A stretch of DNA of 64,000 bases from Betaproteobacteria bacterium. Lineage in GTDB: Bacteria; Pseudomonadota; Gammaproteobacteria; Burkholderiales; Casimicrobiaceae. Where the stretch lies: the NCBI GenBank assembly GCA_013298695.1, contig JAAFIS010000001.1, positions 744,001 to 808,000 of the forward strand, read 5' to 3'. A program made the translations under genes and the position numbers. Below are positions 9,082-60,365 of this stretch, piece by piece; within the stretch, counting starts at the first letter, position 1; each line of letters begins with the position of its first letter. A model generated the notes under the pieces. It saw only the letters and a list, made by a program, of their open reading frames with translations, was not told the origin of the DNA and did not search any database.

Positions 9082-9410
9082 GCACGCTATTTACGAATCT
9101 CAAATGTAAAACAGCTCATGCATTGATCGCCCAATTTAATTGGGCGAAACGTCATTTTTATTGATTTATCGAGAGACAGAATTTCGTAGGCGATTGCCCA
9201 ATTGAATTGGGCGATACGATGCGAAGTTGATTGTATTTAGTCTCGATCGAAACGGGACTGACGAACGCTCGCGATTCGCACGACGAATAGCTCATTGCGA
9301 ACCCATCTCACGCATCGCGAACCTCAAAACGCTATGCTCTCTGTCAATCGAAACACGCAAACTTTCTATCGCAGAAAGCTCCCGAAACTCACTCGAAATC
9401 GAGCCCCTTC
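9082..9410. other. Intergenic region between nuoN and the aldehyde dehydrogenase gene
   Basis: These 329 bases hold no convincing gene. They contain the paired palindromic element at 9128-9212. A short frame at 9227-9466 has no recognisable domain and runs into the dehydrogenase gene in another frame. The downstream half should contain the promoter of the aldehyde dehydrogenase gene, but I cannot assign boxes with confidence. Confidence 0.6.
9128..9212. repeat. Paired palindromic repeat element, copy A
   Basis: The left palindrome at 9128-9146 is CGCCCAATTTAATTGGGCG, with perfect 9-bp arms around a central T. The right palindrome at 9196-9212 is GCCCAATTGAATTGGGC, with perfect 8-bp arms around G. 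Their starts are 68 bases apart. The same arrangement recurs at 14732, 48449 and 52167, with related sites at 31817, 32582, 42141 and 60284. I do not recognise the family. In RNA each palindrome would form a hairpin, but no U-tract follows. Confidence 0.85.
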
Positions 9411-10856
9411 ATGACGACTATAGCCTACCCCAACACGCAACTCCTTATCGACAATCAATGGTGTGACGCCGCTTCCGGCAAAACACTCGCGGTGATCAAT
9501 CCATCGAGTGGCAGCGAAGCCGGCCGCGTCGCGCATGCCGACAAAGTCGATCTGGATCGCGCGCTCGCTGCGGCGCAAAAAGGTTTCACCACTTGGCGCA
9601 ACATGACAGCGCTCGAACGCTCTGATCTCATGCGTAAAGCTGCTGCATTGCTTCGTGAACGCGCTGACAAAATTGCAACGTACATGACGATCGAGCAAGG
9701 CAAGCCGCTCGGCGAAGCCAAGGTCGAGGTCGCCTCCACCGCGCAAATCATCGAGTGGTTTGCCGAGGAATCGCGTCGTGTGTATGGTCGCATCGTGCCC
9801 GCACGCGCGATGAACATCACGGCGATGGTGCTCAAAGAACCGGTTGGCGTCGTTGCCGCTTTCACGCCGTGGAATTTCCCGATGAACCAGGTCGTGCGCA
9901 AGGTGTCTGCAGCGCTTGCAACGGGTTGTTCGATCATCGTTAAAGCGCCGGAAGAAACGCCTGCATCGCCTGCTGAATTGATTCGCGCGTTCGTCGATGC
10001 CGGGGTTCCGCCAGGTGTCGTGCAACTCGTGTTCGGCAATCCTGCCGAAATTTCGAGCTACTTGATTCCGCATCCCATCGTTAGAAAAATCACGTTCACT
10101 GGCTCCACGCCGGTCGGCAAAACGCTTGCCGCGATGGCGGGTCAACACATGAAGCGCGCCACGATGGAATTGGGCGGCCACGCGCCAGTAATCGTCGCCG
10201 AAGACGCAGATATCGCACTCGCGGTGAAAGCAGCGGGCTCCGCGAAATTTCGCAACGCGGGGCAAGTGTGTATCGCGCCAACGCGCTTCTTGGTCGCCAA
10301 CAAAATCAAGGGTGAATTCACCGAAGCCTTCGTGAAAATGTCAGAAGCGCTCAAGGTCGGCGACGGACTCACGCAAGGCACGCAGATGGGGCCGCTCGCG
10401 AATGCGCGGCGACTCGACGCGATGGCGAAAGTGGTCGCGGACGCAAAAACCAAAGGCGCCAAGATCGTCACTGGCGGTGAACGAATCGGAAACGCTGGCA
10501 ACTTCTTCACGCCGACGGTTGTTGCCGACGTGCCGCTTGATGCATCGCTGTTCAACGACGAACCCTTCGGCCCCATCGCAGGCATTCGCGGCTTCGACAC
10601 GATTGAAGAAGCGATCACCGAAGCCAACCGCCTCGCATTTGGTTTGTCCGCCTACGCGTTCACGAAATCGATCAAAACTGCGCATATGCTCTCGCACAAC
10701 GTAGAAACCGGCATGCTCTGGATCAACCAACCCGCGGTCGCCGTTCCCGAAATGCCGTTCGGTGGCGTCAAGGATTCGGGCTACGGTTCTGAAGGTGGCC
10801 CTGAGGCACTTGAGGCGTATCTGAATACGAAGACAGTGTCGATTACGAACGTCTGA
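9411..10856 (+). CDS. NAD(P)-dependent aldehyde dehydrogenase, succinate-semialdehyde dehydrogenase-like
   Basis: This 481-residue cytosolic enzyme belongs to the ALDH superfamily and oxidises an aldehyde to the carboxylate. Conserved features are the NAD-site segment '[14 protein letters not shown]', the glycine motif [13 protein letters not shown], the general-base glutamate in [11 protein letters not shown], and the catalytic cysteine C287 in [12 protein letters not shown]. Overall it most resembles succinate-semialdehyde or 2-oxoglutarate-semialdehyde dehydrogenases, but substrate cannot be read from sequence. It converges on the SDR gene (37-base gap). With the nearby Rieske oxygenase and GS-family ligase it could act in amine or amino-acid catabolism, which is inference from proximity only. 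Confidence 0.9.
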
Positions 10857-10892
10857 AGCGCTACACAAAAAGTTGTTTGTGACGCACTAACA

Positions 10893-11591
10893 CTAAGCCG
10901 AACGGGTAAATGCCCCGTCAACTCGGATGCTTTCACCATTGATGTATCCGGAATCGCTCGAAAGCAGAAAAGCGACCGTCTTCGCAACCTCTTGAAGTTT
11001 GCCGGCGCGTCGCATCGGAAGTGTCGCGAGCGTATCAGCGTCTAGCCCCCAGTTCTCAAGGAATCCTGGGAGCACGTTGTTCATCCTTATCCCTTCACTT
11101 CCGTACTTTCGCGCAAACATTTTTGCGAAGGTTGGGAGCGATGCTCTGACGCTCGCCACATACCATTCGCCAGGCTCTACTGAATTGATCGAGCCGATAT
11201 TGACGAAAGCGCCGCCGCCCTGACGCACCATGATAGGTTGTACAAGTCGGGCCATGCGCACTACGTTCATGAAACACATTTCCCACGCGACGGTCCAATC
11301 CGCATCACTCGCACTCAACGCGTCGCCGTCAGGTGGATTGCCTGTGTTGTTGACGACGGCATCAATTCGACCATATCGCTCGATGGTCTTTTCAACGAGC
11401 CGGGCGAGGTCGTCTGCGACTTTGATGTCGCCGACAACCGCGAGAGCACCAAGTTCAGCCGCCAGTGTCTCTATGCGTGGCGAAGTTGAAAAGAGCGCAA
11501 GCTCGTAGTTTTGAACCGTTAATTCTCGCGCAATAGCAGCGCCGATGCCCTGACTAGCAGCAGTAACTATGGCAATTGGTTTTTGGTTCAT
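10893..11591 (-). CDS. SDR-family oxidoreductase with altered catalytic motif
   Basis: A 232-residue Rossmann-fold protein of the short-chain dehydrogenase/reductase family. The cofactor motif is present in altered form (TAASQGIG instead of TGxxxGIG), as is NNTG in place of NNAG. The catalytic serine is plausible in NIGSINS. The active-site segment reads YVASVRASL, whereas the family has YxxxK, so the lysine is replaced by valine. The C-terminal 'LSSDSGYINGESIRVDGAF' is typical. It may be a degraded, binding-only or unusual SDR. It is convergent with the aldehyde dehydrogenase and divergent from the Rieske oxygenase gene. Confidence 0.85.
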   Translation of the reverse strand: MNQKPIAIVTAASQGIGAAIARELTVQNYELALFSTSPRIETLAAELGALAVVGDIKVADDLARLVEKTIERYGRIDAVVNNTGNPPDGDALSASDADWTVAWEMCFMNVVRMARLVQPIMVRQGGGAFVNIGSINSVEPGEWYVASVRASLPTFAKMFARKYGSEGIRMNNVLPGFLENWGLDADTLATLPMRRAGKLQEVAKTVAFLLSSDSGYINGESIRVDGAFTRSA

Positions 11592-11690
11592 GTTTTATTT
11601 TTTTCTAGGTTATCTCGCGGAAACCCGGTGGCGCAGCAACATAGCGCGAAGTGAAGCGCTGATTTGCACGGTGAATAGTAATATTGGATT

Positions 11691-13070
11691 ATGCGCGCAG
11701 CACAAAACGAACGCCTTACCCGCATCGGCTCGGGAACGCCGTGCGGCAACCTGTTGCGTCATTATTGGCAACCGATAGCACTCACCGCAGAATTTGATCC
11801 TGCGCTTGATACGCGGATAAGTGAGCGCCCTGCGAAAGCAGTGCGCGCGCTCGGGCAAGACTTTGTTTTATTTCGCGACGCGAAGACGAGCGCGTTAGCG
11901 TTGATTGATCGGCAGTGTCCACATCGCGGCGCGGATTTGGCTTACGGACGCTTGGAGTCGGCGGAAAACGGCGGCGGCATTCGTTGCGCATTTCATGGCT
12001 GGCAATTTCGTGCGGACGGTCAATGCATTGATACGCCGGGTGAGCCGAAAGGATCGCGGCTTTGCGATGGCATTCGTCAGCGCGCGTATCCCGTTGTTGA
12101 AAAAAGTGGCGTGATTTGGGCGTGGCTTGCACCTGAAAGCGTTGCACCGATTGCGTTTCCAGCGCTTGATTGTTTTGTCGCGCCAGATTCCCACACCTTC
12201 GCGTTCAAGGGTTTGTGGAATTGCAATTGGTTGCAGGCGATGGAAGTGGGCATCGATCCGGCGCACGCGTCGTTCTTGCATCGCTTCTTCGAAGATGAAG
12301 ACGTGAGCCAAAGCTATGGCAAACAGTTCCGTGGTGCGAGTGCGGGTAGCGATTGGCCGATGACACGCGTCCTGCGAGAGTTCGAGAGCCCCGAGATTCG
12401 CGTTGAAGCGACCGATTACGGCATGCGACTCACTGCGCTTCGTCGCCTGAGCGAAACGCTCATGCATGTGCGCGTGACCAATCAACTCTTTCCGCAAGCC
12501 TTCGTAATTCCGCTGTCGAGTGACGCTACGATCACGCAGTGGCATTTGCCAGTAGACGATACGCACACTTATTGGGTGGCGATCTTTACGAGCTTCGGCG
12601 AGCCGCTCGACAAAATGCTCATGCGCGAACAGCGATTGAAGCTCTACGAATTGCCCGATTACACGCCGCGCGTTGGCAAACATAACGGCTACGGCTTCAA
12701 TCCGATTGAACAATCGCGCGAAACCTATACCGGGATGGGGCACGACATTAACGTTCACGACCAATGGGCAGTTGAATCACAAGGCGAAATTCAAGATCGC
12801 ACGAAGGAGCATCTCGGCACCACTGACAAAGCGATCATCGCGTTTCGTCGGCAACTCTCGAGTGCGATTGACACTGTGGAAGCGGGTGCTGCGCCGCCGA
12901 TGCAATGGAACGGATCGCATGCTGCGAACATCACGGGACCGATCACGGTGGATGGGATTTGCGCAGCGGATTCGTGGGACACGTATTGGCGTGAGTTTGA
13001 TGTGAAGCGGCGTGCGCAGTGTGAATGGATCTCGCAAAGTGCAAAGGCTGATTCGCAGTGGCAGAGTTGA
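11691..13070 (+). CDS. Rieske non-heme iron oxygenase, alpha subunit
   Basis: A 459-residue protein of the aromatic ring-hydroxylating/demethylating oxygenase family. The Rieske 2Fe-2S ligands are C76, H78, C99 and H102 (CPHRG ... CAFHGW). The mononuclear iron motif D189-P-A-H192-x4-H197 follows, with the bridging aspartate in place. It resembles the phthalate-oxygenase-type, single-component alpha subunits. These receive electrons from a separate reductase, and no reductase or ferredoxin is encoded nearby. The ATG at 11691 is upstream of all conserved elements, though no strong Shine-Dalgarno is visible. The next gene is a GS-family ligase on the same strand, which suggests joint action on an amine, as in aniline-type dioxygenase systems. 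The substrate is unknown. Confidence 0.88.
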   Translation: MRAAQNERLTRIGSGTPCGNLLRHYWQPIALTAEFDPALDTRISERPAKAVRALGQDFVLFRDAKTSALALIDRQCPHRGADLAYGRLESAENGGGIRCAFHGWQFRADGQCIDTPGEPKGSRLCDGIRQRAYPVVEKSGVIWAWLAPESVAPIAFPALDCFVAPDSHTFAFKGLWNCNWLQAMEVGIDPAHASFLHRFFEDEDVSQSYGKQFRGASAGSDWPMTRVLREFESPEIRVEATDYGMRLTALRRLSETLMHVRVTNQLFPQAFVIPLSSDATITQWHLPVDDTHTYWVAIFTSFGEPLDKMLMREQRLKLYELPDYTPRVGKHNGYGFNPIEQSRETYTGMGHDINVHDQWAVESQGEIQDRTKEHLGTTDKAIIAFRRQLSSAIDTVEAGAAPPMQWNGSHAANITGPITVDGICAADSWDTYWREFDVKRRAQCEWISQSAKADSQWQS

Positions 13071-13078
13071 GCGCGGTT

Positions 13079-13138
13079 GATCCCGGCTTTCGCCGGGACG
13101 CGCCTACAACCGGATGTAGGCGACGGCTTGACGTCGCT
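13079..13138. repeat. Composite intergenic palindromic repeats (CCCGGC hairpin plus GTAGG-type REP pair)
   Basis: Between the oxygenase and ligase genes lies a short hairpin ATCCCGGC/GCCGGGA, followed by CGCCTACA-accgga-TGTAGGCG and the REP-like sequence from 13115 (TGTAGGCGACGGCTTGACGT). Nearly the same 23-24 bases recur at 41274-41296. The GTAGG start followed by a TTG-containing stem resembles REP sequences known from other proteobacteria. Confidence 0.65.
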
Positions 13139-13203
13139 AAGCGTAACGAAAGAGTGGTCAAGTCCACCCATTGCCGCCACGGAATATCGTCTGCAATTCG
13201 AAG

Positions 13204-14718
13204 ATGAACGCCACTCTCGACACCACGTTCGAAGATATCGAACGTCATATCAAATCAGACAACATTGAACTCGTGCGCTTCGCGTTTTGCGATCAACACG
13301 GGATCTTTCGCTGCAAAACTATCGTTGCGAAGTACGCGATGGATGCAATGCGAAACGGTTTGCCGATGGTGGGAACGTTGTTGCTCAAAGACACGTCATC
13401 GCGAACTGCGTTTCCAACCTTTGATCCGAATGCGTTCTCCGCTTTAGTAGAAAAAAATCCGTCGCTTGCGCTGTTCGCAAACGCGTCAGACGTCGTCATG
13501 CGCGCCGATCCGACAACGTTTCACGTATTGCCATGGGCACCGAACACCGCGTGGATTCAATGTCAGGCGCATGATCACAGCGGTAATTTGTTGTCATTCG
13601 ATACACGCGGCCAGTTGCAGCGCGCGTTGCAACGTCTCGCTGCGCACGGCTACGGTTTGCGTTGCGGTCTTGAAGTCGAATTTCACATTTACAAACTCGA
13701 AGATCCACGCCTCTCGCCACAGGATTCATCATGGCCCGCGCCGCCACCGAGCGTGACGATGATTCATCCCGGCAACAACGTGCTTTGCGAACAGTGGGCG
13801 GATATGAGTGATGCGCCGCTCCGGATCGTGTTGCTCACCGCGCAATCGCTCGGCTTGCCGATTCGTTCACTCGAAGTAGAGCTCGGACCGAGCCAAGTGG
13901 AATGTGTGTTCGATGTGCAAGACGCGCTCGCGGCTGCGGATTCGATGGCGCTGTTTCGTAACGCAACAAAACAGGCTTTGCGCCGCGCGGGCTATCACGT
14001 CACTTTCATGTGCCGTCCGCAATTCCCCAACATCGTATCGAGCGGATGGCATTTGCATCAATCGCTTTTCGATTTAAAAACGGGCGCAAACTCGTTTGCT
14101 AAACATACCTCCCCTTCAAGGGGAGGTGGGCACGAGGTGCCAGGTGGGGATGGTTTTTCTAAGCGAGCTAACAATGTGCTCTCGAACGCCGGCACGCACT
14201 GGCTTGCAGGCCTACTCGCCCACGCACGAGCCAGCAGCGCCTTCGCAGCGCCAACGATCAACGGCTACGCACGCTATCAACCGAACATGATGGCACCGCA
14301 GCGCGCGATTTGGGGCGCGGGCTCGCGTGGTGCAGCGCTACGTGTGGTGTCGAATGGAAAAGCAAACGATGCGGCTACGAGAATCGAAAATCGCATCGGT
14401 GAACCTGCCGCAAACCCGTACCTCTATATCGCTTCGCAGATTCACGCGGGACTCGATGGCATCGAGCGCGGATTGCAACCCGCACCAGCCGAGACTGCGT
14501 CATACGCAACAAATGAACACGACGCGCTGCCAACATCACTTGGCGAAGCAATTAATTTATTGCATGCGTATGACGCGCTGCGCACCGGCTTCGGCGAAGA
14601 TTTCGTGAACTACTTTTCGCACCTCAAACGTCACGAAGTTTCGCGGTTTGAATCGAGTCGAAATGATGAAGAACGTAAGAAAGATTGGGAACAGCGAGAG
14701 TATTTTTTGTTGTTCTAG
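13204..14718 (+). CDS. Glutamine-synthetase-family ligase (possible gamma-glutamyl-amide ligase) with an in-frame repeat insertion
   Basis: This 504-residue protein has the GS beta-grasp and catalytic domains: 'GLEVEFHIYK' (metal glutamates), 'SLEVELGPSQVECVFD', 'GWHLHQSLFD' and 'NPYLYIASQIHAGLDG'. GS-like ligases of this branch often join glutamate to an amine (PuuA, IpuC, aniline-type enzymes) rather than to ammonia. The upstream Rieske oxygenase fits such a role, but this is inference. I chose ATG 13204, because the 11 codons before it start at a TTG in repeat-derived sequence. Residues about 301-319 (KHTSPSRGGGHEVPGGDG) are encoded by a palindromic repeat also found between genes. They sit in a variable loop between the HLHQSL motif and the 'HWLAGLLAHA' helix, so the fold may tolerate them. 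Confidence 0.87.
   Translation: MNATLDTTFEDIERHIKSDNIELVRFAFCDQHGIFRCKTIVAKYAMDAMRNGLPMVGTLLLKDTSSRTAFPTFDPNAFSALVEKNPSLALFANASDVVMRADPTTFHVLPWAPNTAWIQCQAHDHSGNLLSFDTRGQLQRALQRLAAHGYGLRCGLEVEFHIYKLEDPRLSPQDSSWPAPPPSVTMIHPGNNVLCEQWADMSDAPLRIVLLTAQSLGLPIRSLEVELGPSQVECVFDVQDALAAADSMALFRNATKQALRRAGYHVTFMCRPQFPNIVSSGWHLHQSLFDLKTGANSFAKHTSPSRGGGHEVPGGDGFSKRANNVLSNAGTHWLAGLLAHARASSAFAAPTINGYARYQPNMMAPQRAIWGAGSRGAALRVVSNGKANDAATRIENRIGEPAANPYLYIASQIHAGLDGIERGLQPAPAETASYATNEHDALPTSLGEAINLLHAYDALRTGFGEDFVNYFSHLKRHEVSRFESSRNDEERKKDWEQREYFLLF
14107..14158. repeat. Palindromic repeat inside the GS-family coding sequence
   Basis: Bases 14107-14127 are a perfect palindrome with 10-bp arms (ACCTCCCCTT, C, AAGGGGAGGT). 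They are followed by GGGCACGAGGTGCCAGG and TGGGGATGGT. The same order of blocks occurs between genes at 15771-15846 (CTCCCCTTCAAGGG, GGGCACGAGG, TTGGGGATGG). The related core CTCCCCCTTCAAGGGGGAG lies in the 103-bp units at 16247 and 18867. The reading frame of the host gene is kept open through the repeat. Confidence 0.85.
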
Positions 14719-14731
14719 CTTTAAAGCGTTG

Positions 14732-14818
14732 GGCCCAATTTAACCGGGCCATGCGGCGAAAAAAATAATTTATCGAAATTGAGTATTTATTCGATAGTCG
14801 CCCAATATTAGCGGGCGA
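14732..14818. repeat. Paired palindromic repeat element, copy B
   Basis: The left site at 14732-14750 is GGCCCAATTTAACCGGGCC, a slightly diverged palindrome. The right site at 14798-14818 contains CGCCCAATATTAGCGGGCG. Starts are about 67 bases apart, as in copies A, D and E. The element fills the gap between the convergent GS-family and rsgA genes, and the flank ends in AATAGCTGCTTTC, similar to ATATAGCTGTTTTC after copy D. Confidence 0.78.
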
Positions 14819-14853
14819 TATATAAAATAGCTGCTTTCTATTTTGCTTCGAAA

Positions 14854-15762
14854 TCAGTTCTTCGCGTAATGCGGAATCGCCTCGGTTTCCGAGCAAAATT
14901 TCCGCAAATACGAAAGCCGTTCCGCGCTCGCTTTTCCCTCTGACACTGCGTCTCGAAATGCGCAATTTGGCTCGTGCAAGTGCTTGCAATCGCGGAAACG
15001 GCATTTGCCCATCAATGGCTCAAATTCGGGAAATGCGCGCTCAATTTCGTTGCGTGAAAAATGAGCAAGGCCGAACACTTGCATCCCAGGCGAATCGATG
15101 ACCCAGCTGTTGCCGTCGGTTGTTGCGCCTGGCTCTGTTGCGATCTCAAAAAGTCGCGTGAACGTTGTCGTGTGTTTTCCTGAATTGAGTGCGTCCGAAA
15201 TTTCTTGCGTGTACTGCGCTTCTGCGCCGACGAGCGCGTTCAACAATTTGCTCTTGCCCATGCCTGATTGACCGATGAGCACGGTTTTTTCACCCATCAA
15301 TCGCTCATGCATCGGCTTCGAATTGAATTTTGCTGAGAAGGGGATCACATCGAATCCGAGATCGCGATACATCGCGAGCGCGTTCGCCGTCGCCGCTGCT
15401 TCGACGAGATCCACTTTGTTCAATCCAATGATTGCCTTCACGTTGCTCGCTCGCGCGCAAGCGAGCCAGCGATTCAATAGCTCATCGGAGTATGTGGGCA
15501 ACGGCGCGATGATGCACGCCACTTGCGTGACGTTCGCGGCGACCAATTTCTCTTTGAACTGATCGGCGCGATAGAAGAGCGACGTGCGTTCACCGAGCTT
15601 TTCAATTACGCCTTCGCTGGCGCTCGGAAAGCTAATAAATGCCGTGTCGCCGCACGCCGGCTGCAGCGTGCGCCCTTTGGTTATGCACTTTAATTTGCGA
15701 CCATCCGCAAGCTTTACCGTCGCGTGACGGCGTTGGGTTTCGATGACGAGGGCTTGTTCCAT
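14854..15762 (-). CDS. rsgA: Ribosome small-subunit-dependent GTPase A
   Basis: This circularly permuted GTPase binds the 30S subunit and assists late maturation. The 302-residue protein has an N-terminal OB-fold. The G motifs follow in permuted order: NKVD (in IGLNKVDLVE) before the P-loop GQSGMGKS and then DSPGMQ. It ends with the zinc-binding Cys/His segment CRFRDCKHLHEPNC. All catalytic and metal residues expected for the family are present. The gene is convergent with the GS-family gene, and a palindromic repeat lies just upstream of its start. Confidence 0.96.
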   Translation of the reverse strand: MEQALVIETQRRHATVKLADGRKLKCITKGRTLQPACGDTAFISFPSASEGVIEKLGERTSLFYRADQFKEKLVAANVTQVACIIAPLPTYSDELLNRWLACARASNVKAIIGLNKVDLVEAAATANALAMYRDLGFDVIPFSAKFNSKPMHERLMGEKTVLIGQSGMGKSKLLNALVGAEAQYTQEISDALNSGKHTTTFTRLFEIATEPGATTDGNSWVIDSPGMQVFGLAHFSRNEIERAFPEFEPLMGKCRFRDCKHLHEPNCAFRDAVSEGKASAERLSYLRKFCSETEAIPHYAKN

Positions 15763-15770
15763 TTATTTTT

Positions 15771-15846: not shown

Positions 15847-15848
15847 TC

Positions 15849-16208: not shown

Positions 16209-16246
16209 CGGTTTTTTTTCTGAAGATATGAACTGCGTGGTGTGTC

Positions 16247-16349: not shown

Positions 16350-16369
16350 TTTAGCTGCGCCGCAAAAAG

Positions 16370-31579: not shown

Positions 31580-31765
31580 ATGATCGTTTGCATTTGCCAC
31601 GGGATTAATGACAAAGCTATTCGCAACGCGGTTTCCGATGGGGCTGTGTCGCTCTCAGACATCGCTTGCGCGACGGGGGCGGGCACGTGTTGCGGGAAGT
31701 GTCACGATTGCGTGCGTGAGATTGTGGATGAGCAGCTTAGTATGTTGATGCCCATTGCTGCTTAG
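31580..31765 (+). CDS. bfd: Bacterioferritin-associated ferredoxin
   Basis: This 61-residue 2Fe-2S protein donates electrons to bacterioferritin to release stored iron as Fe(II). The cluster ligands C4, C6, C38 and C41 match the Bfd family (MIVCICHG ... TCCGKC). It lies 230 bases upstream of bfr on the same strand, which supports the assignment. A palindromic repeat sits between them. Confidence 0.94.
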   Translation: MIVCICHGINDKAIRNAVSDGAVSLSDIACATGAGTCCGKCHDCVREIVDEQLSMLMPIAA

Positions 31766-31816
31766 TTTTCACTGGAAAAACAAAGTACTGCGAAAAATAG
31801 CAAAACTCTTCGTTTT

Positions 31817-31833
31817 GCCCAATTAAATTGAGC
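31817..31833. repeat. Palindromic repeat of the GCCCAATT family, single copy C1
   Basis: GCCCAATTAAATTGAGC lies in the bfd-bfr gap and has the right-hand form of the pair (central A). No left partner is visible 67 bases upstream. Its flank TTAGAGTAATCGCT resembles CTAGAGTAAACGCT after copy C2 at 32582, which suggests that the two share more than the palindrome. Confidence 0.7.
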
Positions 31834-31994
31834 GCTTAGAGTAATCGCTATACACGTTCACGCCTAAATCGAAGCCACGCTTTTGTTTGCCGTTCAAAGT
31901 TTTATTGCACGATTGCTCCGCAAACGCGGTGACGCGATGCGAGGTCAATCCGTTACAGTTCTGGTTCGCAAAAACTCGTCGCAAAGGATGTCCC

Positions 31995-32477: not shown

Positions 32478-32581
32478 ACACTGCGGCTATGCGCTCTATC
32501 TTTGGACGGGTAACTCCAGTTTCACTGAGGTGACGTACGATCTACGCAGACTATTGAGAAATGACTGAATCTATCGCGTTG

Positions 32582-32598
32582 CCCAATTGAAGTGGGCA
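32582..32598. repeat. Palindromic repeat of the GCCCAATT family, single copy C2
   Basis: GCCCAATTGAAGTGGGC lies in the gap between the convergent bfr and rnr genes. It has one arm mismatch and the right-hand form of the pair. The left partner is not recognisable. Confidence 0.65.
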
Positions 32599-32627
32599 CC
32601 TAGAGTAAACGCTGACACCGATTCAAC

Positions 32628-35319: not shown

Positions 35320-35404
<85 letters not shown>

Positions 35405-38972: not shown

Positions 38973-39398
38973 ATGGACGAGACTGATCACAAGCTCATTG
39001 GGTTGCTGCGAACCAACGCCCGCGAAACGATCGCGACGCTCGCCCATCGATTGGGGGTTTCACGTGGCACTGTCAATAATCGCCTCAGAAAATTGGAGGA
39101 AGAAGGCGTAATCGTTGGATACACGGTACGGCTTCGACCTGACGTTTCTGCCCAGAAGATCAGGGCTTGGATGAGTATTGCTGTTGAAGGCAACCAGACA
39201 CGCCGCGTAATCGCCGATCTCATGGGCGAGCCCGCCGTCGCCACACTGCACGATACCAACGGTCGCTGGGATTTGCTCGCAGAGCTGCGCGCTGAAAATC
39301 TGCAAGAAATTTCGCAGGCCTTGGAGCGAATTCGCCTGATCAAGGGCATCAGCAATTCAGAGACGAGTATTCACCTCGTCACTTACCGCGCGGCTTGA
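38973..39398 (+). CDS. Lrp/AsnC-family transcriptional regulator
   Basis: The 141-residue protein has an N-terminal helix-turn-helix ('DHKLIGLLRTNARETIATLA' and 'GVSRGTVNNRLRKLEEEGVI') and a C-terminal RAM ligand-binding domain. It most likely controls the divergent ornithine cyclodeaminase gene in response to ornithine, arginine or a related amino acid, which is inferred from arrangement. Its 3' end overlaps the convergent marR gene by 20 bases. Confidence 0.92.
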   Translation: MDETDHKLIGLLRTNARETIATLAHRLGVSRGTVNNRLRKLEEEGVIVGYTVRLRPDVSAQKIRAWMSIAVEGNQTRRVIADLMGEPAVATLHDTNGRWDLLAELRAENLQEISQALERIRLIKGISNSETSIHLVTYRAA

Positions 39399-42088: not shown

Positions 42089-42140
42089 GCTAGTTTCATT
42101 AAACAAAAAACCTAGCTATATCGCCGCAAGAAATGGGATT

Positions 42141-42205
42141 CGCTCAGTATTACGGGCACTATTGATTAATTTCAAAAATTCGCTAATCGCCCAATTAAAT
42201 AGGGC
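42141..42205. repeat. Paired palindromic repeat element, copy F (shortened)
   Basis: The right site at 42188-42205 is CGCCCAATTAAATAGGGC. A diverged left site CGCTCAGTATTACGGGCAC lies at 42141-42159. The spacing is 47 bases instead of 67, so about 20 bases of spacer appear to be missing. It lies between the fumarylpyruvate hydrolase and acyl-CoA ligase genes. Confidence 0.62.
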
Positions 42206-42292
42206 TCTGACGCGTATGTCTGGATACCAGTTTTTCGAACTGCCTTCGCAGCGCGTTTCGTCTACATTGTGAATCTCATAGGAGGTTTTTCA

Positions 42293-48411: not shown

Positions 48412-48448
48412 CGATGCGCCGCTCGTGTTTATAGCTTTCACTAGAAAA

Positions 48449-48532
48449 CGCCAATTTAATTGGGCGAAACGGTATTTCGCGTAGTAAATTGCTACAGCAA
48501 TAAATTAGTGTTTAACCCCAATTAAATAGGCG
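48449..48532. repeat. Paired palindromic repeat element, copy D
   Basis: The left site is CGCCAATTTAATTGGGCG at 48449-48466 (one C shorter than the consensus). The right site is CCCCAATTAAATAGGCG at 48516-48532. Starts are 67 bases apart. The element lies after the sugar transporter operon and before the DUF1800 gene, and is flanked by TAGCTTTCACTAGAAAA and ATATAGCTGTTTTC. Confidence 0.83.
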
Positions 48533-48698
48533 TTCAGGTCATATAGCTGTTTTCTCGGGATGAGCGGTTGACTTGCAATGACGTTGGCATAAACTCCTGC
48601 TAACAGTTGCGTTTCACTTTCGACATCAGATCGAAACACCCTCGCAACTTGCAAACTCGCCGGGGGATTTGCGCAGACGATGTCCGAAAGGGGCACTT

Positions 48699-52140: not shown

Positions 52141-52166
52141 ATGAATCCCACAACTTAATGCAGTAA

Positions 52167-52251
52167 CGCCCAATTTAATTGGGCGATTGGCTTTGTTTGC
52201 TAATTTGTTGAGAAAATTTTTCACGAGGCTTTAAGCCCGATTAAATAGGGC
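52167..52251. repeat. Paired palindromic repeat element, copy E
   Basis: The left site is CGCCCAATTTAATTGGGCG at 52167-52185, identical to copy A. The right site is GCCCGATTAAATAGGGC at 52235-52251. GCCC starts are 67 bases apart. It fills the gap between the convergent DUF1501 and SpmAB genes. Confidence 0.85.
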
Positions 52252-52273
52252 AACGACGCATGAAGTTGTTTTC

Positions 52274-53512: not shown

Positions 53513-53679
53513 GCTGTCCCCTGAAATAAACGTTGCGCAGAGCCGCAACCGGTAGCGGCGCAGGCGCTTGCGAAATTGTTGAATAAGTCTATCGCGCGAT
53601 GTGCAGCTGCGGGCAGCAAATGCCGTGCTCATGCGAAATTGGCAACCGATGAAGCGTGCCACGATGCAACAATTGCTAC

Positions 53680-54576
53680 ATGCAAAGCACATTCATCTCC
53701 CCGCGCGGTGGCGCGTTAGTCTGGGTCGCGCTGTCTGCCCTGTTGCTCTCTGGTTGCGCCGGTTTCGGCGAGCGACTCAATCGTCCAATCGAAATTGACG
53801 CAACCAGCTATCAGTCGGTGAGCCAAGATTCGCGCGCGCAGCATTTGGTGCTGCACTTTACGACGATCAATAATGAGGCATCGATTCGCGTGCTCACACT
53901 TGGAGCCGTGAGCTCGCATTATTTGGTGACCGAGCGCGAAGACAACGTGCCGCCAAAAATCTATCAATTCGTTCCGGATACGCGCCGCGCTTTTCATGCC
54001 GGCGTGAGCTACTGGAAAGGCGCTGCTGGCCTCAACGCGAGCTCCATCGGGATCGAGATCGTCGGCAAAGGCTACACCGACACGCCGGACGGGCGTACCT
54101 GGCATGAATTCCCGAAAGAACAGATGGATTTGGTAATTGCGCTGACCAAGAAAATTGTCGCTGAGCACAATATTCGCCCCGACCGCATCGTCGGTCATAG
54201 CGACATCGCGCCGGGTCGAAAGAATGATCCCGGCCCCAAATTCCCGTGGAAGCGATTTGCTGATGAAGGCATCATTCCGTGGCCAGATGAATCGCTGGTT
54301 GTGGCGAAGCGGATTGAATTCGAGGCGAAACTGCCAGAGGTCTCGTGGGTTCAACAAAAGCTCACCGCTCACGGCTTCAACGTGCCGGTGACCAACACTC
54401 TCGATCAAATCACGAAAAACGCGCTGGAAGCGTTTCAGATGAAATATCGCCCCGCAAAATTTGACGCCGTGGTTGACGCCGAAACCGCAGCGCTGCTCGA
54501 CGTGGTGACCCGCGCGGAAGGCTTTCGCGTGCGCGGTGCAACGCCTACACCCGGATCAAGAGAGCGTCAACAATGA
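53680..54576 (+). CDS. Lipoprotein N-acetylmuramoyl-L-alanine amidase (AmiD-like)
   Basis: The 298-residue protein has a lipobox LLLSGC with C26 as lipidation site. An Amidase_2 domain follows, with zinc ligands expected from HLVLHFT, the AFHAGVSYW histidine and the 'GHSDIAPGRKNDPGPKFPW' segment. A C-terminal peptidoglycan-binding domain (about 215-270) ends it. It would remove peptides from muramic acid in the periplasm, facing the envelope. It overlaps the next gene by four bases (ATGA at 54573). The later cell-wall genes suggest a role in recycling or remodelling. Confidence 0.9.
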   Translation: MQSTFISPRGGALVWVALSALLLSGCAGFGERLNRPIEIDATSYQSVSQDSRAQHLVLHFTTINNEASIRVLTLGAVSSHYLVTEREDNVPPKIYQFVPDTRRAFHAGVSYWKGAAGLNASSIGIEIVGKGYTDTPDGRTWHEFPKEQMDLVIALTKKIVAEHNIRPDRIVGHSDIAPGRKNDPGPKFPWKRFADEGIIPWPDESLVVAKRIEFEAKLPEVSWVQQKLTAHGFNVPVTNTLDQITKNALEAFQMKYRPAKFDAVVDAETAALLDVVTRAEGFRVRGATPTPGSRERQQ

Positions 54577-55979
54577 AGGCGAACCTTTCAACCGTTGTGA
54601 CCGCGCTCGCGATGATCGGGCCACTTACCTCCTGCAGCACGAATGCACCTGACACCACCACCCGATCCCCTATGACCGCCTCGCTAAATGCCTCCCAAAA
54701 GTTAGCCATCGACCAGTCGCTTGCCTCGATTGCAGCGACACCGGGCCGCGAACTAGCAAGCATTGCGGCCGTCGTGATTCGCGACGCAGGCGTGGTCTAT
54801 GAAGGCGCGGTTGGGCACCGATTCATCGACGGTGTGAAGCCCGCAAATCACGCCGCGGCCACGCCAGACAGCTTGTATCGCATCGCATCAATTTCCAAGA
54901 TGGTGGTGTCGGTCGCAGTGGCGAAATTGGCCGATGAGAACAAGCTCGATCTCGATCGAGACGTGAGTGAATATTTGGGCTACCGCCTGCGCAATCCTAA
55001 TTTCCCAGATTCGAAAATCACCTTGCGCATGCTGATGACGCACACCTCGTCGCTGCGTGATAGCGGCGGCTACAACTTCCCCGAAAGCGTCAACCTGCGC
55101 GACGTACTGATGCCTGGCGGCGCGCGCTATGACAAAGGTGCGATGTGGGCCAAAGATCGCGCACCGGGCGCGTTCTTCAGCTACTGTAACTTTGGTTGGG
55201 GTGTGATCGCCAACGTCATGGAGCGCGCCACAAACGAGCGCTTTGATCGCTTGATGCAACGCGAGCTTTTTGCGCCGCTTGGGGTCACTGCCACGTTCGA
55301 CCCGGCATCGCTTTCGCCAGTAGAGCGGGCGCGGGTTGTCACGCTGTATCGCAAGCGCGCTGAAATTAACGGCAAGGAAGTGTGGAATACCAACGGGCCT
55401 TGGGTGCCGCAAGTTGATGATTTCTCTATCGAACCGCCCAAACCTAGAGCTAGCGCGAGCTACATTATCGGCAGCAACGGCTCGCTGTTCGGCCCGCAAG
55501 GCGGCTTGCGAATCTCCGCACGCGATTTGAGCAAACTGATGCTCATGTTGATGAACGAGGGAAAGTATGACGGCAAGCAGATCCTTTCAAAACGTGCGGT
55601 CGAACTCTTGCTATCGGAGCAGTGGCGCTTCGACAAGGGTGCGTTTGCGGGCAAAGGCAATCGCGCGGAAGACGACGAAGGCGAGGGCGGGTTATTCAAT
55701 GCGTGGGCGCTCGGGCCGCAAAAGTTTTTAGATGTGTCCGAGGGGAAAGGTCGCGGCGATCGCATGCTCGCTAAAGGCGGTTTCACCGGCCTTGGGCATT
55801 TAGGAAACGCCTACGGGCTTACGTCTGCGTTCGTGTTTAATCCAGAAACGAAGCGCGGCGTGATCTTTTTAGTCGGTGGCACAGCCAGTGATCCCGAGCT
55901 TAACAAAGGACAATATTCCGCGTTTTATCGCTATGAAGAAGAGATTTTCAACGCGCTTGCTCCCGCGTTATCGAACTGA
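54573..55979 (+). CDS. Class C beta-lactamase-family serine hydrolase, putative lipoprotein
   Basis: The 468-residue protein has a lipobox-like LTSC with C21. The serine-hydrolase motifs are S106-I-S-K109 (SxxK) and YCN in FFSYCNFGWG, with GGFTGLGH as a likely KTG equivalent. It is larger than true AmpC enzymes and probably a penicillin-binding-protein-like DD-peptidase or esterase. It is translationally coupled to the amidase gene. Its 3' end overlaps the convergent LD-carboxypeptidase gene by 12 bases. Confidence 0.88.
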   Translation: MKANLSTVVTALAMIGPLTSCSTNAPDTTTRSPMTASLNASQKLAIDQSLASIAATPGRELASIAAVVIRDAGVVYEGAVGHRFIDGVKPANHAAATPDSLYRIASISKMVVSVAVAKLADENKLDLDRDVSEYLGYRLRNPNFPDSKITLRMLMTHTSSLRDSGGYNFPESVNLRDVLMPGGARYDKGAMWAKDRAPGAFFSYCNFGWGVIANVMERATNERFDRLMQRELFAPLGVTATFDPASLSPVERARVVTLYRKRAEINGKEVWNTNGPWVPQVDDFSIEPPKPRASASYIIGSNGSLFGPQGGLRISARDLSKLMLMLMNEGKYDGKQILSKRAVELLLSEQWRFDKGAFAGKGNRAEDDEGEGGLFNAWALGPQKFLDVSEGKGRGDRMLAKGGFTGLGHLGNAYGLTSAFVFNPETKRGVIFLVGGTASDPELNKGQYSAFYRYEEEIFNALAPALSN

Positions 55980-57035
55980 AGCTGCGTGTAGCGTTAGCGT
56001 TTGTGCGTCGGTGTTGAGCGTTGCCACTGCACCAATCGGCATCACCATTTGATGGGCGATGTGGCCCACGGAATAGCCGCTCACGGTGGGCACAGCGTGA
56101 TCGCTTGCGTGATCGGCAAATGCCTCCGCGAGCGTGATTGACGGCTCGCCGTCAGTGGCTTCACACTTTCGAAACACACCAAAAATCGTTGCGGCAGGTT
56201 TTGCGTTCGCGCTGTGTTGCCGCAGCTGTGTGAGCATGCGATCAATGCGATAAGGCGCTTCGTTGATGTCTTCAAGAAAGAGCAGTTTGTTGGCAAACGT
56301 TGGCAAGTACGGTGTGCCGACCAGTGCAGAGAACACAGCGAGATTGCCGCCAACGAGCGCGCCCGTTGCCACACCTTCGCGCAACGTGCGCACTCGAAAT
56401 TCCGGATCAGTGGCCGCACGCTCATCGTTGGCCGCGGCAGATCGCATCACATAATTTTCGGCACCTTCAAACAAGATGGATTCGAGATGATTTCTCGAAT
56501 AATCAGTCAGCGTTGAGATGCCACTCGGCGTGTGGAATGTGATCATCCTCGAAAGGTGAGTGACTGCATTGAGCAGCGCTGTCATGTCGGAATAACCCAT
56601 CAATACTTTGGGGTTCGCGCGCAGCATCGCGTAGTCGATCAGCGGCAAGGTTTGTGATGTTCCGGAGCCGCCGCGCACCGACCACAACGCACGTATTTCA
56701 GGGTTGCGCCACATCGAATGCACATCGTCTGCGCGCTGCTGCGGCGTGCCCGCATAGCCACCTCGCTTCGCGCGCAAATTGGTGCCGATACGTGGCTTGA
56801 GCCCAAGCGATTCCGCATTTTTCACCGTGCTTTGGATATGCTCGTCGCTGACCACACCGCCTGGATTAATCAACGCAATCGCGTCGCCCTTCTTCAATCG
56901 CGGCGGGCGCAACATGCGCGAGTTAGGTGAAATCAATTGCGGCCTAGCTTCGCGTGACTTGGCCCACGATTGTTGGGCGAGTATCGCTGAAACTCCAGCT
57001 AACGAATAGGTTAAGAATTGGCGCTTGTCGCCCAT
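55968..57035 (-). CDS. LD-carboxypeptidase (peptidase family S66)
   Basis: The 355-residue protein has an N-terminal signal-like segment (FLTYSLAGVSAILAQQSWA), while classical LdcA is cytosolic. The S66 nucleophile is in MGYSDMTALLNA. The acid and base residues would be in 'LLFLEDINEAPYRIDRML' and 'SGYSVGHIAHQMVMPIG'. It removes the terminal D-alanine from murein tetrapeptides. The two upstream convergent cell-wall genes and dacB further on support a peptidoglycan-recycling role. The signal suggests periplasmic action. Confidence 0.88.
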   Translation of the reverse strand: MGDKRQFLTYSLAGVSAILAQQSWAKSREARPQLISPNSRMLRPPRLKKGDAIALINPGGVVSDEHIQSTVKNAESLGLKPRIGTNLRAKRGGYAGTPQQRADDVHSMWRNPEIRALWSVRGGSGTSQTLPLIDYAMLRANPKVLMGYSDMTALLNAVTHLSRMITFHTPSGISTLTDYSRNHLESILFEGAENYVMRSAAANDERAATDPEFRVRTLREGVATGALVGGNLAVFSALVGTPYLPTFANKLLFLEDINEAPYRIDRMLTQLRQHSANAKPAATIFGVFRKCEATDGEPSITLAEAFADHASDHAVPTVSGYSVGHIAHQMVMPIGAVATLNTDAQTLTLHAASVR

Positions 57036-57109
57036 AAGAATCGCGCTTATAAAGAAAAAGCCGACGCTACTTTCGCAACGTCGGCTTTGACGAGTGAGTT
57101 ACGAAACGA

Positions 57110-59983
57110 CTATTTGAAATCGTATTTCACGCCGATCCAGAATGAGCGACCACGCGGGTCGGTCAAACGGGGTTCCCACGAGCTGCCAGCGCCTAGGTCG
57201 CCGTCGTACGCTGCAGAAAATGGTGGATCAGTATTCAGAATGTTTTTCACGCCGAACGAAATCGATGTGTTCTTCATTCCGGTGTACGTTGCGCTCAGGC
57301 TAAACGTTGAGTAAGCCTTTACGTTTGGATCGTAATTGACCGGTGTGACCGTGCCGTTTTCTACGCCCGGCGCAACGCGATCAACGTAGCTAGCTACGTA
57401 GTAGTTCGACAACGTGCCGCTCCAAGGACCTTGCGCGTAGGTGAAGGTCATGGTGTGCTTCCAACGAACAGGAATGTCGCCTTCCGCAGAGAACTTGCCT
57501 ACTTCGTTTGGACCAAAGCCCACGGTTGGCAGCAAGCGGAACTTGCGCTCAATCATGTACGTGCCGTCAAGCGTCGCTGTGAATTTGCCTTTGTACATTG
57601 GCGTATTCGCACGCAAGCTCACGTCAACGCCTTTGGTGCGCGTTTCACCCGCATTTACCCAGCGCTGATCGATGATCACCAAGTTGCCAGCGGCGTCACG
57701 GATGAAGCTCGATGGGAACAAGGCGGAGTTTGCGACCAGAGTTGACAGACTCAGTGTTGTGATTTGGTTGTCACGCTGAATTTCCCAGTAGTCAACGCTA
57801 CCGTTTAGCCAAGTTGTCGGCTCGAACACGAGGCCCAGGTTGTACGACTTTGAAGTCTCTGGGCTCAGGTTCGGTTTGCCACCGAAAATGGTGTCGGGCG
57901 TGATTGCTTCGCAGCCGGGTTTCGTGCTGTCGACTTTAAGCGTTGGGCACTTTGCTGGATCGACGAGATCTTTACCGGAGTAAGGTGAAATCGTCACGCC
58001 AAAAAGTTGTTGCGAGAATGTTGGTACGCGGAAGCCTTCGCTATACGAACCACGAACGAGCACTTCTTTCGTTGGCACGAAACGGAAGCTTACCTTCGGA
58101 TTGGTCACCGCGCCAAAACCGCTGTAGCGGTCGTAGCGAAGTGCGCCGGTCACTTCGAGTTGCTTGGTGATTGGCAGTGCGATTTCGCCGTAGAGTGCGG
58201 TGACGTCACGCTTGACACCCGAGAGCTCGTTGCTTGCATCAAACGGCGCAAGCAAAATGCGCTCTTGCGTTTTCACGTCAGTTTCGCTGCCGTTAAACGT
58301 GTATTTCTCAGTGCGGAAATCGGCACCCAGCGCGCCCAACACATCACCTGCAGGCAGCTTAAACAGCGGCCCAGAGATCGACGCGTCGATCGCGTTAGTC
58401 GTGTATTTTCCGCCGTATAGTTTGGTGCCAGCCGCAGAGGCTGCGGCCAAGCCATCAATGGCTGCTTGAGTTTGCGATTGCCCTGCGCGCAGGAACGGAT
58501 TCAACGTGCCGGTATTGATGAGCGCCGCGAATTTGTCTGCAAAGTAATAGCCACCGCCGAGAACGGAGTTGGCATCGCTGTACGCAGTCCATGCGCCAAC
58601 TTTGTAGTCGTAGTTGCCGAATGCGCCTTCTGCACCAAGCAAGAAGCGGCCGGTTTTTGCGGTCGTTTCAATTTGGCGCGGTCCGCATTCCATACAACGC
58701 CAGCGGAATGCAATGGGCTGCCCGCGGTTTTCTTCGATGGTTGGGAACTGTGCAACGATCGCGTTAAACACTTCGTTGTAGGAAGATCCGGTTGACGGAT
58801 ACAGCGCGAGCAAACCCAAGTTACGGAACTGGAAGTTGTTACTCGTAATTTGTGGATTCGAGAATGACTTCTTGGTTGTTGTGTCTGAGAACGTGCCCTC
58901 AGCAAAAACATTGAGGCTTTCGCTTACTTTCAGCACGCCGCGCACAACGCCAGTCACGCTATCGACAGGCTGTTGGATGGTTGCTGCGCGTCCGGTATCC
59001 CATGCACAACCCCATTTCGCGCTCGGGGTGTCCCAAAGCTTTTCGTCGTAGGCCTGCATGCCGGGCACCGTAGAGCAGCCCGCCTGACCGTTCAAGTCGA
59101 GCACGTTGATGCCGTTCATGGCTTGGGTAGTTCCAGGCTGCGTTGGGCCGGTGCCGTTTGAAAGTGCGCCTGCCGAATTGCGCGAGGTCAAGATTGAGCG
59201 CGCTTGCCCGATTGCGAATGCTGTCGCGTAAGGGGTGCCGCGCGTATCAACCGACAAGCCACGATCAGGCTGGAACGTGTTGACGAAATCGCGCTGCGAG
59301 CCGAGCAATTTCTCGTTTTTGTTGTACGAGATCGAACCCATCACGTTGTAGCCGTTTTTCGCGAGATCGCCCCAACCGCCAAGCACCGAGCCGCGATAGA
59401 CTGCGCCGCCGCTGGCTTCTGGAAGGTCAACAAACGCCGAAACTGAGACGCCTTGATAGTCTTTGCGCAGGATGAAGTTGATCACGCCACCAATCGCATC
59501 TGTTCCATAGATCGCAGATGCGCCGTCTTTCAACACTTCCACGCGTGCCACTGCATCGAGCGGAATCTGTTTCAGATCAACCGTGCCGCCGTTCAAACCG
59601 TGCGCGGCGACGCGGCGACCGTTCAACAGAATCAGCGTCGCGTTTGAGCCTTGGCTGCGTAAGTTCGCCGCAGACAAACCGTTGTTGCCGCGATTAGCGC
59701 CCGCCACCACGTCGGAGGTCGACGCGAGGTTATCGAAGCCCGCGCCGTTCGACGTGAGCTGTGTGATGAATTGTTCAACGGTGACGATGCCGCTGCGATC
59801 AAGCTGATCGCGCGTAATGACTTGCACCGGCAGCGCGCCTTCGGTTTGCACGCGCTTAATGTTTGAGCCGGTGACTTCAACGCGCTCCACTTTTTGCGGC
59901 TCGGCAGGCGCCGTCTGCGCAAAAACAAGTGGCGTTGCGATCATCGACAACGACAGGCCATAGGCGATTTTTTTCAGTTTCAC
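57110..59983 (-). CDS. TonB-dependent outer-membrane receptor
   Basis: From GTG 59983 the protein is 957 residues with signal peptide 'KKIAYGLSLSMIATPLVFAQ'. A plug domain follows with 'GSNATLILLNGRRVAAHG' and 'VEVLKDGASAIYGTDAIGGV', then a large barrel ending 'GRSFWIGVKYDFK'. GGAAGGG precedes the GTG; an in-frame ATG at 59998 is the alternative start. The substrate is unknown: no siderophore, sugar or cobalamin gene is adjacent, only a dyad element upstream at 60332. The TonB box cannot be assigned with certainty. Confidence 0.9.
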   Translation of the reverse strand: MKLKKIAYGLSLSMIATPLVFAQTAPAEPQKVERVEVTGSNIKRVQTEGALPVQVITRDQLDRSGIVTVEQFITQLTSNGAGFDNLASTSDVVAGANRGNNGLSAANLRSQGSNATLILLNGRRVAAHGLNGGTVDLKQIPLDAVARVEVLKDGASAIYGTDAIGGVINFILRKDYQGVSVSAFVDLPEASGGAVYRGSVLGGWGDLAKNGYNVMGSISYNKNEKLLGSQRDFVNTFQPDRGLSVDTRGTPYATAFAIGQARSILTSRNSAGALSNGTGPTQPGTTQAMNGINVLDLNGQAGCSTVPGMQAYDEKLWDTPSAKWGCAWDTGRAATIQQPVDSVTGVVRGVLKVSESLNVFAEGTFSDTTTKKSFSNPQITSNNFQFRNLGLLALYPSTGSSYNEVFNAIVAQFPTIEENRGQPIAFRWRCMECGPRQIETTAKTGRFLLGAEGAFGNYDYKVGAWTAYSDANSVLGGGYYFADKFAALINTGTLNPFLRAGQSQTQAAIDGLAAASAAGTKLYGGKYTTNAIDASISGPLFKLPAGDVLGALGADFRTEKYTFNGSETDVKTQERILLAPFDASNELSGVKRDVTALYGEIALPITKQLEVTGALRYDRYSGFGAVTNPKVSFRFVPTKEVLVRGSYSEGFRVPTFSQQLFGVTISPYSGKDLVDPAKCPTLKVDSTKPGCEAITPDTIFGGKPNLSPETSKSYNLGLVFEPTTWLNGSVDYWEIQRDNQITTLSLSTLVANSALFPSSFIRDAAGNLVIIDQRWVNAGETRTKGVDVSLRANTPMYKGKFTATLDGTYMIERKFRLLPTVGFGPNEVGKFSAEGDIPVRWKHTMTFTYAQGPWSGTLSNYYVASYVDRVAPGVENGTVTPVNYDPNVKAYSTFSLSATYTGMKNTSISFGVKNILNTDPPFSAAYDGDLGAGSSWEPRLTDPRGRSFWIGVKYDFK

Positions 59984-60283
59984 GTGTATCCCTTCCATCC
60001 GGTTAACCGTTTGTGACGCGTCGCGCATGGCGTCGCGCCGCGTTGCGCTACACCGCACCCCTCCCTCGAAAGGCGCGCTGCACCGCAAAATTTTGTCCCG
60101 AAAACCACGACATTGCGTCAACTGGTTTCTAACTGGCATTATCGAGCGGCGATTGCGAAAGGGTCAATTGGCTTGATCGGCATTGCCAAAATCGCATGGA
60201 GTTATGTGCGGAAATGGGACAACCGTCTGCGGCTTGGGGCGATTGCGTTATCGTCGGTAGGTTAATGGACTAATTGGTGTATA

Positions 60284-60365
60284 GCCTTTTTAATTGCGCA
60301 ACTAGCCTTAAATTAGACAAAGCGAAATTTACTGTAAACGTGTTTACAGCCCAATTAAATTGGGC
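60284..60365. repeat. Paired palindromic repeat element, copy G
   Basis: The right site at 60349-60365 is a perfect GCCCAATTAAATTGGGC. A diverged left site GCCTTTTTAATTGCGCA starts at 60284, 65 bases upstream. Unlike the other copies it lies in a divergent promoter region, and its right site touches the CTGTAAAC palindrome. Confidence 0.7.
60332..60349. promoter_or_regulatory. CTGTAAAC-GT-GTTTACAG palindrome, candidate operator
   Basis: Perfect 8-bp arms flank a GT centre. The form TGTAAAC(n)GTTTACA resembles LacI-family operators, which often control TonB receptors for sugars. It lies about 180 bases before dacB and 350 before the receptor gene. Confidence 0.55.

Follow-up and report, generated by a model that had tools for sequence, protein, structure and literature searches.

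The window analysed here, a stretch of 64 kb, holds nuoN, rsgA, ugpC, a glnA-like gene and a TonB-receptor gene, and beside or between its genes lies a dispersed DNA element with dyad symmetry. A full-length profile recovers nine copies, and a retrained half-site matrix adds a tenth candidate (Table 1). The sequence-only reading of this stretch had described such an element, placed mostly at gene 3' ends and constrained in its spacing, and that description stands: palindromes are present at the sites it named, with coordinates off by at most 1. Its eight sites are intergenic by gene calls, as it had said, but genes do contain some of the copies found elsewhere. The weak ninth copy and the tenth candidate were not on its list. 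Two sites where it saw a diverged left partner (42141 and 60284) correspond to profile copies whose left half is indeed diverged. Two others, taken to have the right palindrome only (31817 and 32582), turned out to have both halves once the full-length profile was applied.

Table 1. Copies of the dyad in the 64-kb window, in window coordinates (a dot marks features given without strand)
Feature	Position	Strand	Score and remarks	Earlier site
Best dyad copy, just 3' of nuoN	9111..9230	.	profile 82 bits on +, 74 on -	
Parts of the 9111..9230 copy	outer ~9110-9116, palindrome 9129-9145, centre ~9165-9176, palindrome 9196-9212, outer ~9223-9229			
Dyad flanked by the glnA-like gene and rsgA, in convergent orientation	14716..14834	.	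59-60 bits, both strands	
Dyad, left half decayed	31732..31850	.	33-37 bits	31817
Dyad, left half decayed, between convergent genes	32497..32615	.	37.5 bits on +	32582
Tenth candidate, centre ~39125	39065..39184	.	35 bits, retrained half-site matrix; missed by profile search	
Dyad, left palindrome diverged	42131..42222	.	35-36 bits; better-preserved orthologous copy in G002, L074	42141
Dyad 3' of ugpC gene	48431..48550	.	55 bits on +	
Dyad between convergent genes	52150..52269	.	72.6 bits on +	
Weak ninth copy	56946..57064	.	profile 18-20 bits; half-site matrix 37 bits	
Dyad between divergent genes, left half diverged	60271..60383	.	38-40 bits	60284

Some window copies can be followed into a second genome, G002. 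There the gene next to the copy at 31732..31850 likewise has an element on its upstream side (L180:14042-14162), and none is called 3' of the gene at the 32497..32615 copy, where the following sequence differs. The glnA-like and rsgA genes, which have a common element in the genome that contains the window (G000), are ~9 kb apart in G002 with one element each (G002:C17, L179:16249-16369 and L180:4914-5034), and G010 also has an element right after glnA. The separate elements at the two G002 genes suggest either exchange between elements or separate origins. The weak ninth copy adjoins a strong intrinsic terminator-like site 3' of the TonB-receptor gene (57057-57088, minus strand, a 14-pair stem with a T tail).

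The motif GCCCAATTNAATTGGGC matches the window 11 times with at most three mismatches, compared to 0.38 expected and a maximum of 2 in 100 shuffles. In the 4.08 Mb of G000 it has 261 sites with at most two mismatches, and the reversed pattern has 1. Around 76 palindromes, a second palindrome with at most 6 mismatches stands at +67 in 29 cases, at -67 in 23 and at +66 in 9, over a background of 0.18 per offset. The first profile was built from 52 elements, with the nine of the 76 palindromes that lacked a scoring partner set aside. In these 52 elements the palindromes start 67 bp apart in 42, 66 bp in 8 and 68 bp in 2, the range proposed earlier; the left palindrome is centred on T in 37 and the right one on A in 35.

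The 17-bp palindromes are only the most visible part of the dyad, which measures ~122 bp rather than the ~85 bp first estimated and includes a conserved centre and outer blocks. It reads, in order, outer block CAGCTTT, palindrome, AT block and centre TTTATC/GATAAA, followed by the mirror image. Measured outward from the middle of the dyad over 104 aligned halves, the AT block lies at ~13 bp, the palindrome is centred at ~33 bp and AAAGCTG, the other arm's form of CAGCTTT, lies at ~55 bp; conservation weakens past ~60 bp. The AT block, palindrome and outer block are spaced ~two helical turns apart on each arm. A half-site matrix drawn from 266 halves contains several blocks and ~29 bits per half. 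The linkers are constant in length and variable in sequence in the aligned elements, as had been said of the spacers.

In 804 kb of G000, 151 elements score at least 20 bits (188 per Mb); both halves reach at least 10 bits in 124 of them, and the weaker half scores 0-10 bits in 19 and below 0 in 8. The sequence-only reading depended on an excess of paired over single sites, and the excess is there: among 54 near-consensus palindromes (at most 2 mismatches, same 804 kb), the partner half is clear in 46 (at least 5 bits), weak in 6 (-5 to 5 bits) and absent in 2 (below that range). Half-sites of at least 15 bits number 333. The partner is at background level in 79, of which 61 are wrong-orientation readings of called elements; the remainder may be lone halves.

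A symmetry of this kind could reflect an RNA hairpin in 3' UTRs or a DNA cruciform, a reading that we find scarcely credible. In its favor, the palindrome remains palindromic in several dialects (described below), G000 shows weak mirror covariation in the outer block (z 2.4, or 2.9 in the first 52 elements) and the centre (z 2.2), and some palindrome pairs lean positive, namely three G000 pairs (z 1.4 to 2.1) and one G005 pair (z 3.4). However, the 16 paired palindrome positions of G000 and G002 vary nearly independently (z -1.5 to 2.1), and the palindromes show no clear mirror covariation (z 1.6, -0.2 and -1.0). On the sense strand, G.T and A.C mismatches are about equally frequent (43 vs 35 in G000, 28 vs 23 in G002), which gives no clear G.U bias. 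No compensatory changes that form a long hairpin were seen in the inner linker, where mirror z is -0.1 in G000, -1.7 in G002 and 0.1 in G005. An Rfam gathering search of the window returned a tRNA only (35320-35401). Long hairpin, cruciform and RNA hairpin were rejected because neither paired bases nor mirrored halves vary together to any great extent, and the earlier suggestion of an RNA 3'-end fold is not supported. Taken with the fixed linker lengths, the two-turn spacing of the blocks and the regularity with which arms pair, the near-independence of the halves suggests a site on double-stranded DNA for a putative symmetric complex. Of the three readings first offered for the element, it is the protein-binding site that stays alive.

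The element is abundant and, as far as convincing copies go, appears confined to one genus, presumably of uncultured betaproteobacteria, most members of which carry it. Elements were scored with matrices trained on the same genome, except in G012, for which the G011 matrix was used. By this measure, element counts (with those of the reversed control in brackets) are 79 (1) for 404 kb of G000, 74 (0) for 360 kb of G002, 22 (0) for 280 kb of G005, 10 (2) for 99 kb of G010, 8 (0) for 80 kb of G011 and 3 (0) for 80 kb of G012. Extrapolation from 804 of the 4077 kb of G000 gives ~770 copies per genome. The G000 profile, counting both strands, has from 74 to at least 150 matches in 11 of 17 genus genomes (G000 included), 2 to 8 in G007, G008, G012 and G013, and none in the genus members G003 and G016; these counts in relatives are lower bounds, as palindrome dialects differ between genomes. 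The same profile has 0 matches in seven other genomes of the same family, and among 13 genomes from other families it matches only G031, three times and weakly (best E 0.012). The paired G000 pattern has no match in a collection of named genomes, which may omit this genome and its near relatives, and a literature search found no title or abstract opening that describes the element, which by itself does not prove its absence from the literature.

The palindrome is written in several dialects. It reads GCCCAATT.AATTGGGC in G000, approximately GCC.TATT..ATAAGGC in G010, and CGACC..GGTCG in three elements of G012, which combine these other palindromes with a GTCGAC centre and the same outer block. 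A pattern search for the GTCGAC dialect in 399 genomes found matches in G005 and G008, and once in G201.

Copies are concentrated at the ends of genes, as called by our own hexamer script rather than a standard gene caller. Among intergenic regions of at least 100 bp, the element occupies 15/25 convergent, 39/116 tandem and 8/43 divergent regions in G000, and 18/27, 20/86 and 3/32 in G002. Between tandem genes it lies nearer the upstream stop in 27/40 (G000) and 17/21 (G002) cases, at a median distance of 29 and 5 bp from that stop versus 98 and 88 bp from the next start. In both G000 (L019 ~1541, C4:44941) and G002 (L083:3001), an aminotransferase-like gene, named and inspected by eye, seems to take its stop codon from the palindrome at its 3' end.

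The 3' end of nuoN, readable at nine loci, illustrates how the position is kept. An element scores there in G000, G002, G010, G011, G005 and G012; inspection by eye adds an element in G001 and half an element in G004, and finds none in G013. The comparison leaves out G014, G015, G016, G008 and G003, whose loci are on the minus strand, and G009, whose locus ends inside the gene. Compared by eye, G005 and G011 have a different sequence from G000 past the element, and therefore the element stays with nuoN. The nuoN match in G015 (L169, C77:52076-53509) has an in-frame TAG.

The closeness to upstream stops and the persistence at nuoN despite a changed downstream sequence are what a bidirectional transcription terminator at gene 3' ends, protein- or hairpin-based, would predict, and tandem ends with an element also have fewer separate intrinsic terminators (2/61 vs 15/129). 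We nevertheless consider a terminator unlikely. A hairpin with a T tail, our test for intrinsic termination, occurs in only 16/151 elements; convergent ends do not differ in their separate terminators (7/50 vs 4/34); and a 20-kb part of the window has about as many terminator-like sites as its shuffles (35 vs 30.8, sd 6.1). Copies inside genes and the even spacing described below also count against it.

The in-gene copies hold up against controls. At a cut of 30 bits, 133 sites in 804 kb of G000 divide into 115 intergenic and 18 inside called genes, although genes make up 685 of the 804 kb; four wrong-spacing controls and one direct-orientation control give 0-1 in-gene matches at this cut. The wrong-spacing controls do give 15-21 intergenic matches at 30 bits, because one true half then pairs with weak sequence. 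At a 15-bit cut, 14/79 elements in G000 and 27/74 in G002 are called inside genes, some of them doubtfully. The copies in genes tend to occur where intergenic space is scarce: 24 of them, taken at 20 bits where wrong-spacing controls yield 4-6 in genes, have 1.12 intergenic regions within 2.5 kb versus 1.97 for random gene positions, a difference given without a significance test.

Along the chromosome, elements follow one another at ~5 kb, more evenly than chance in 5/6 stretches of G000 and G002. The coefficient of variation (CV) of the spacing is 0.53, 0.49 and 0.54 in the three G000 stretches C12 (n=24), C16 (n=44) and C1a (n=73), compared to 0.94, 0.90 and 0.91 for equally many sites drawn within each intergenic class (P 0.002, <1/3000 and <1/3000). 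Against uniform placement, G002 gives a CV of 0.50 in C1b (P <1/3000) and 0.55 in C17 (P 0.012), whereas two large gaps (29 and 15 kb, one of them annotated) leave its C1a irregular overall (CV 0.97, P 0.56). Of 138 gaps in G000, 10 are shorter than 2 kb and 7 longer than 10 kb, where exponentially distributed gaps would give 44.6 and 19.6.

The largest G002 gap (29 kb, C1; L206:6703-20000 and L207:1-18000) is free of elements and holds several defence-like genes. Eight of its proteins were scanned. Models of DrmMI or type IIG, DpdE, DruE and IetA are matched by methylase, helicase and AAA proteins, and the set also includes WYL and DUF2779 proteins, a protein with an integrase core and a single ordinary transporter. 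A gap of at least 25 kb in G000, cut by the end of the stretch, contains mostly ordinary metabolic genes among the 10 of 18 listed proteins that were scanned, with phosphatase, transporter, PdxA and helicase genes among its contents.

Did these copies arrive by transposition? As a REPIN or MITE, the dyad would be a non-autonomous mobile element, now decaying. It shares with REPIN/BIME repeats an inverted palindrome doublet as the unit, a fixed spacing (67 bp here; 71 bp in GI REPINs, PMC3116915), a variable spacer and hundreds of mostly extragenic copies (features compared with PMC3116915 and PMC3733652). We regard this origin as very unlikely and largely contradicted by three lines of evidence.

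First, there is no sign of recent duplication. The best linker identity between copies is 26-29 of 50 positions, when the null maximum averages 27, and linker similarity reveals no recently duplicated copies beyond chance among the 79, 74 and 22 copies of G000, G002 and G005.

Second, orthologous positions are shared, and at two sites where they differ the DNA has not changed in length. With orthologous elements accepted from 8 bits within 200 bp, all intergenic G000 elements mapped on both flanks have a counterpart: 9/9 in G002, 1/1 in G009 and 1/1 in G010. The reciprocal mapping from G002 to G000 gives 7/7, with one weak case (15 bits) and one in-gene case among them. Intergenic elements with one flank mapped are shared in 8/15 cases with G002, 0/3 with G009 and 1/1 with G010, and rearrangement may account for the lower figures. 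In-gene elements mapped on both flanks are shared in 2/4 cases with G002 and 1/3 with G009. At the hutF site (G000 C12:926; gene name above the NCBIfam cut-off), a perfect palindrome in G000 faces unrelated G002 sequence of equal length (-13 bits, flanks at the same distance, length difference 0), and the two proteins agree at 17/40 residues inside the element versus 59/80 beside it. The PEPC site (G000 C16:190203) is a weaker element-free case, with no length change and a G002 score of 7 bits by the G002 matrix, just under the cut of 8. At these two sites the genomes differ by substitution, not insertion, through gain in G000 or loss in G002. Across orthologous elements of G000 and G002, identity is 55% in the palindromes, 53% in the outer blocks, 52% in the AT block, 45% in the centre and 37-39% in the linkers.

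Third, the candidate transposase belongs to another repeat. A Y1_Tnp search in 24 genomes found one match in G000, 4 in G001, 4 in G005 and 7 in G010. The sole G000 match, a RAYT-type gene (L071:3154-3675, G000:C1 ~100 kb), is flanked by a GTAG-type REP of its own, GTAGGGTGGGCACCCCGTGCCCACC, at ~3069 and ~3735 with a variant at ~3800, and the nearest dyad is centred 1.8 kb away (L071:1392). An IS110-family transposase gene (L071:4087-5118) adjoins it. RAYT-family matches do not track palindromes with at most one mismatch (1 vs 133 in G000; 7 vs 0 in G010, though G010 has its own dialect). A REP/RAYT origin was rejected on the ground that the single G000 RAYT has its own, different REP, and the mobility first proposed for the element is not borne out.

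Further differences from REPIN/BIME repeats are the lack of a GTAG or CGTC tag at the palindrome in the dyad consensus, the lack of compensatory spacer changes, the in-gene copies without length change and the even spacing; REP doublets are reported to be spread at random over extragenic space (PMC3116915). Comparison with other mobile repeats leads the same way. By description alone, the dyad resembles ERIC in its similar length, overall dyad symmetry and intergenic location. ERIC sequences of enterobacteria (~127 bp) are regarded as inserted mobile sequences. Unlike a MITE or ERIC-like repeat, the dyad shows no recent duplicates and a length change of 0 at the hutF and PEPC sites, the second being the weaker case.

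The features above may be joined in one general picture, which we hold to be almost as likely right as wrong. The element would be a chromosomal milepost: a 122-bp symmetric nucleoprotein site, written by selection or transfer drive through point mutation about every 5 kb, intergenic where possible and in genes where necessary, with a dialect that shifts together with its putative binding protein. Binding of a protein is suggested by the near-independence of the halves, the fixed linker lengths and the spacing of the blocks. A putative dimer would sit on each 17-bp palindrome, and the complex would also touch the AT blocks, the centre and the CAGCTTT blocks at either end.

What such a complex would do can be read in two ways. 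In the first, the dyad would be a chromosome-organising site. A putative architectural complex would bind it at intervals of about 5 kb, for the most part next to gene ends, the places where supercoils gather, and would thereby fold the chromosome or insulate it. This is a possible function to which we give a minority share of our confidence, and it is a close rival of the DNA-transfer tag discussed next, explaining symmetry and spacing equally well. It agrees with the even spacing, the higher occupancy of convergent than divergent regions, a block spacing consistent with contacts on one face of the helix, positions conserved between species, and in-gene copies where intergenic space is scarce. 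Known nucleoid-organising sites such as matS and those of SlmA and Noc are also palindromic protein sites spread across the chromosome (binding of the dyad being predicted), but each is a single short palindrome, and they are far less numerous. Two points weigh against it. A single site among several hundred should be under weak selection, but the sites are well kept, so strong selection per site would be needed; and with several palindrome dialects in one genus, the sites would have to follow a changing protein.

In the second and preferred reading, tentative and held at somewhat less than even confidence, the element is a genome-wide tag of self DNA, read by a putative two-fold-symmetric protein complex and kept by biased DNA transfer. 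The tag would be recognised as double-stranded DNA and would mark self DNA for preferential transfer and recombination; sites would arise and persist in place through base substitution, and transfer itself would drive and homogenise them. Even spacing, intergenic preference, in-gene copies where there is little such space, the lack of sites in a defence island and dialects form the pattern of uptake sequences, which makes a role in DNA transfer the most likely function.

DUS of Neisseriaceae and USS of Pasteurellaceae are functional singly. Two papers (PMC3630211, PMC7811141) describe them as present in hundreds of copies or more, originating by point mutation, evenly distributed, split into species dialects, fewer in genes and newly acquired DNA, and found as inverted pairs at gene ends; they are explained by biased uptake plus recombination. 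The dyad is alike in its hundreds of copies, gene-end preference and species dialects, in its point-mutation origin (two sites, unpolarised) and even distribution (5/6 stretches), in its under-representation in genes and in its one defence-rich 29-kb gap. It differs in scale. DUS are 10-12 bp and USS ~31 bp, in contrast to a 122-bp dyad with a rigid 67-bp spacing and extra blocks; USS recur at ~1 kb rather than ~5 kb; and uptake sequences are short motifs that act singly, whereas only 2/54 near-consensus dyad palindromes have a partner at background. Of the features of the dyad, in-situ origin, even spacing, avoidance of genes and a defence island, gene-end preference and dialects are known marks of uptake sequences; size and symmetry are not. 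In S. muelleri, 1294 overlapping dyad DUS occurrences are described, for which dimer-based recognition was suggested (PMC3630211).

Besides its size, we count against the tag the irregular C1a of G002, the ordinary genes in the G000 gap, the incomplete sharing of in-gene copies and the weakness of the PEPC case. ComEC also counts against it: all 15 genus genomes searched have this protein, even those in which the G000-type element is scarce or missing. It therefore does not discriminate between them and was rejected as a discriminator.

If the tag reading is true, this genus would mark self DNA in a much larger and symmetric form than DUS or USS, and the dyad would give a way into how long DNA is read by a DNA-transfer machine. 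Were the architectural reading true, it would be a sequence-coded, evenly spaced scaffold of a bacterial chromosome. Under either reading, the dyad is a repeat family that resembles REPs yet evolves in place, and it warns against calling every dispersed palindrome pair mobile.
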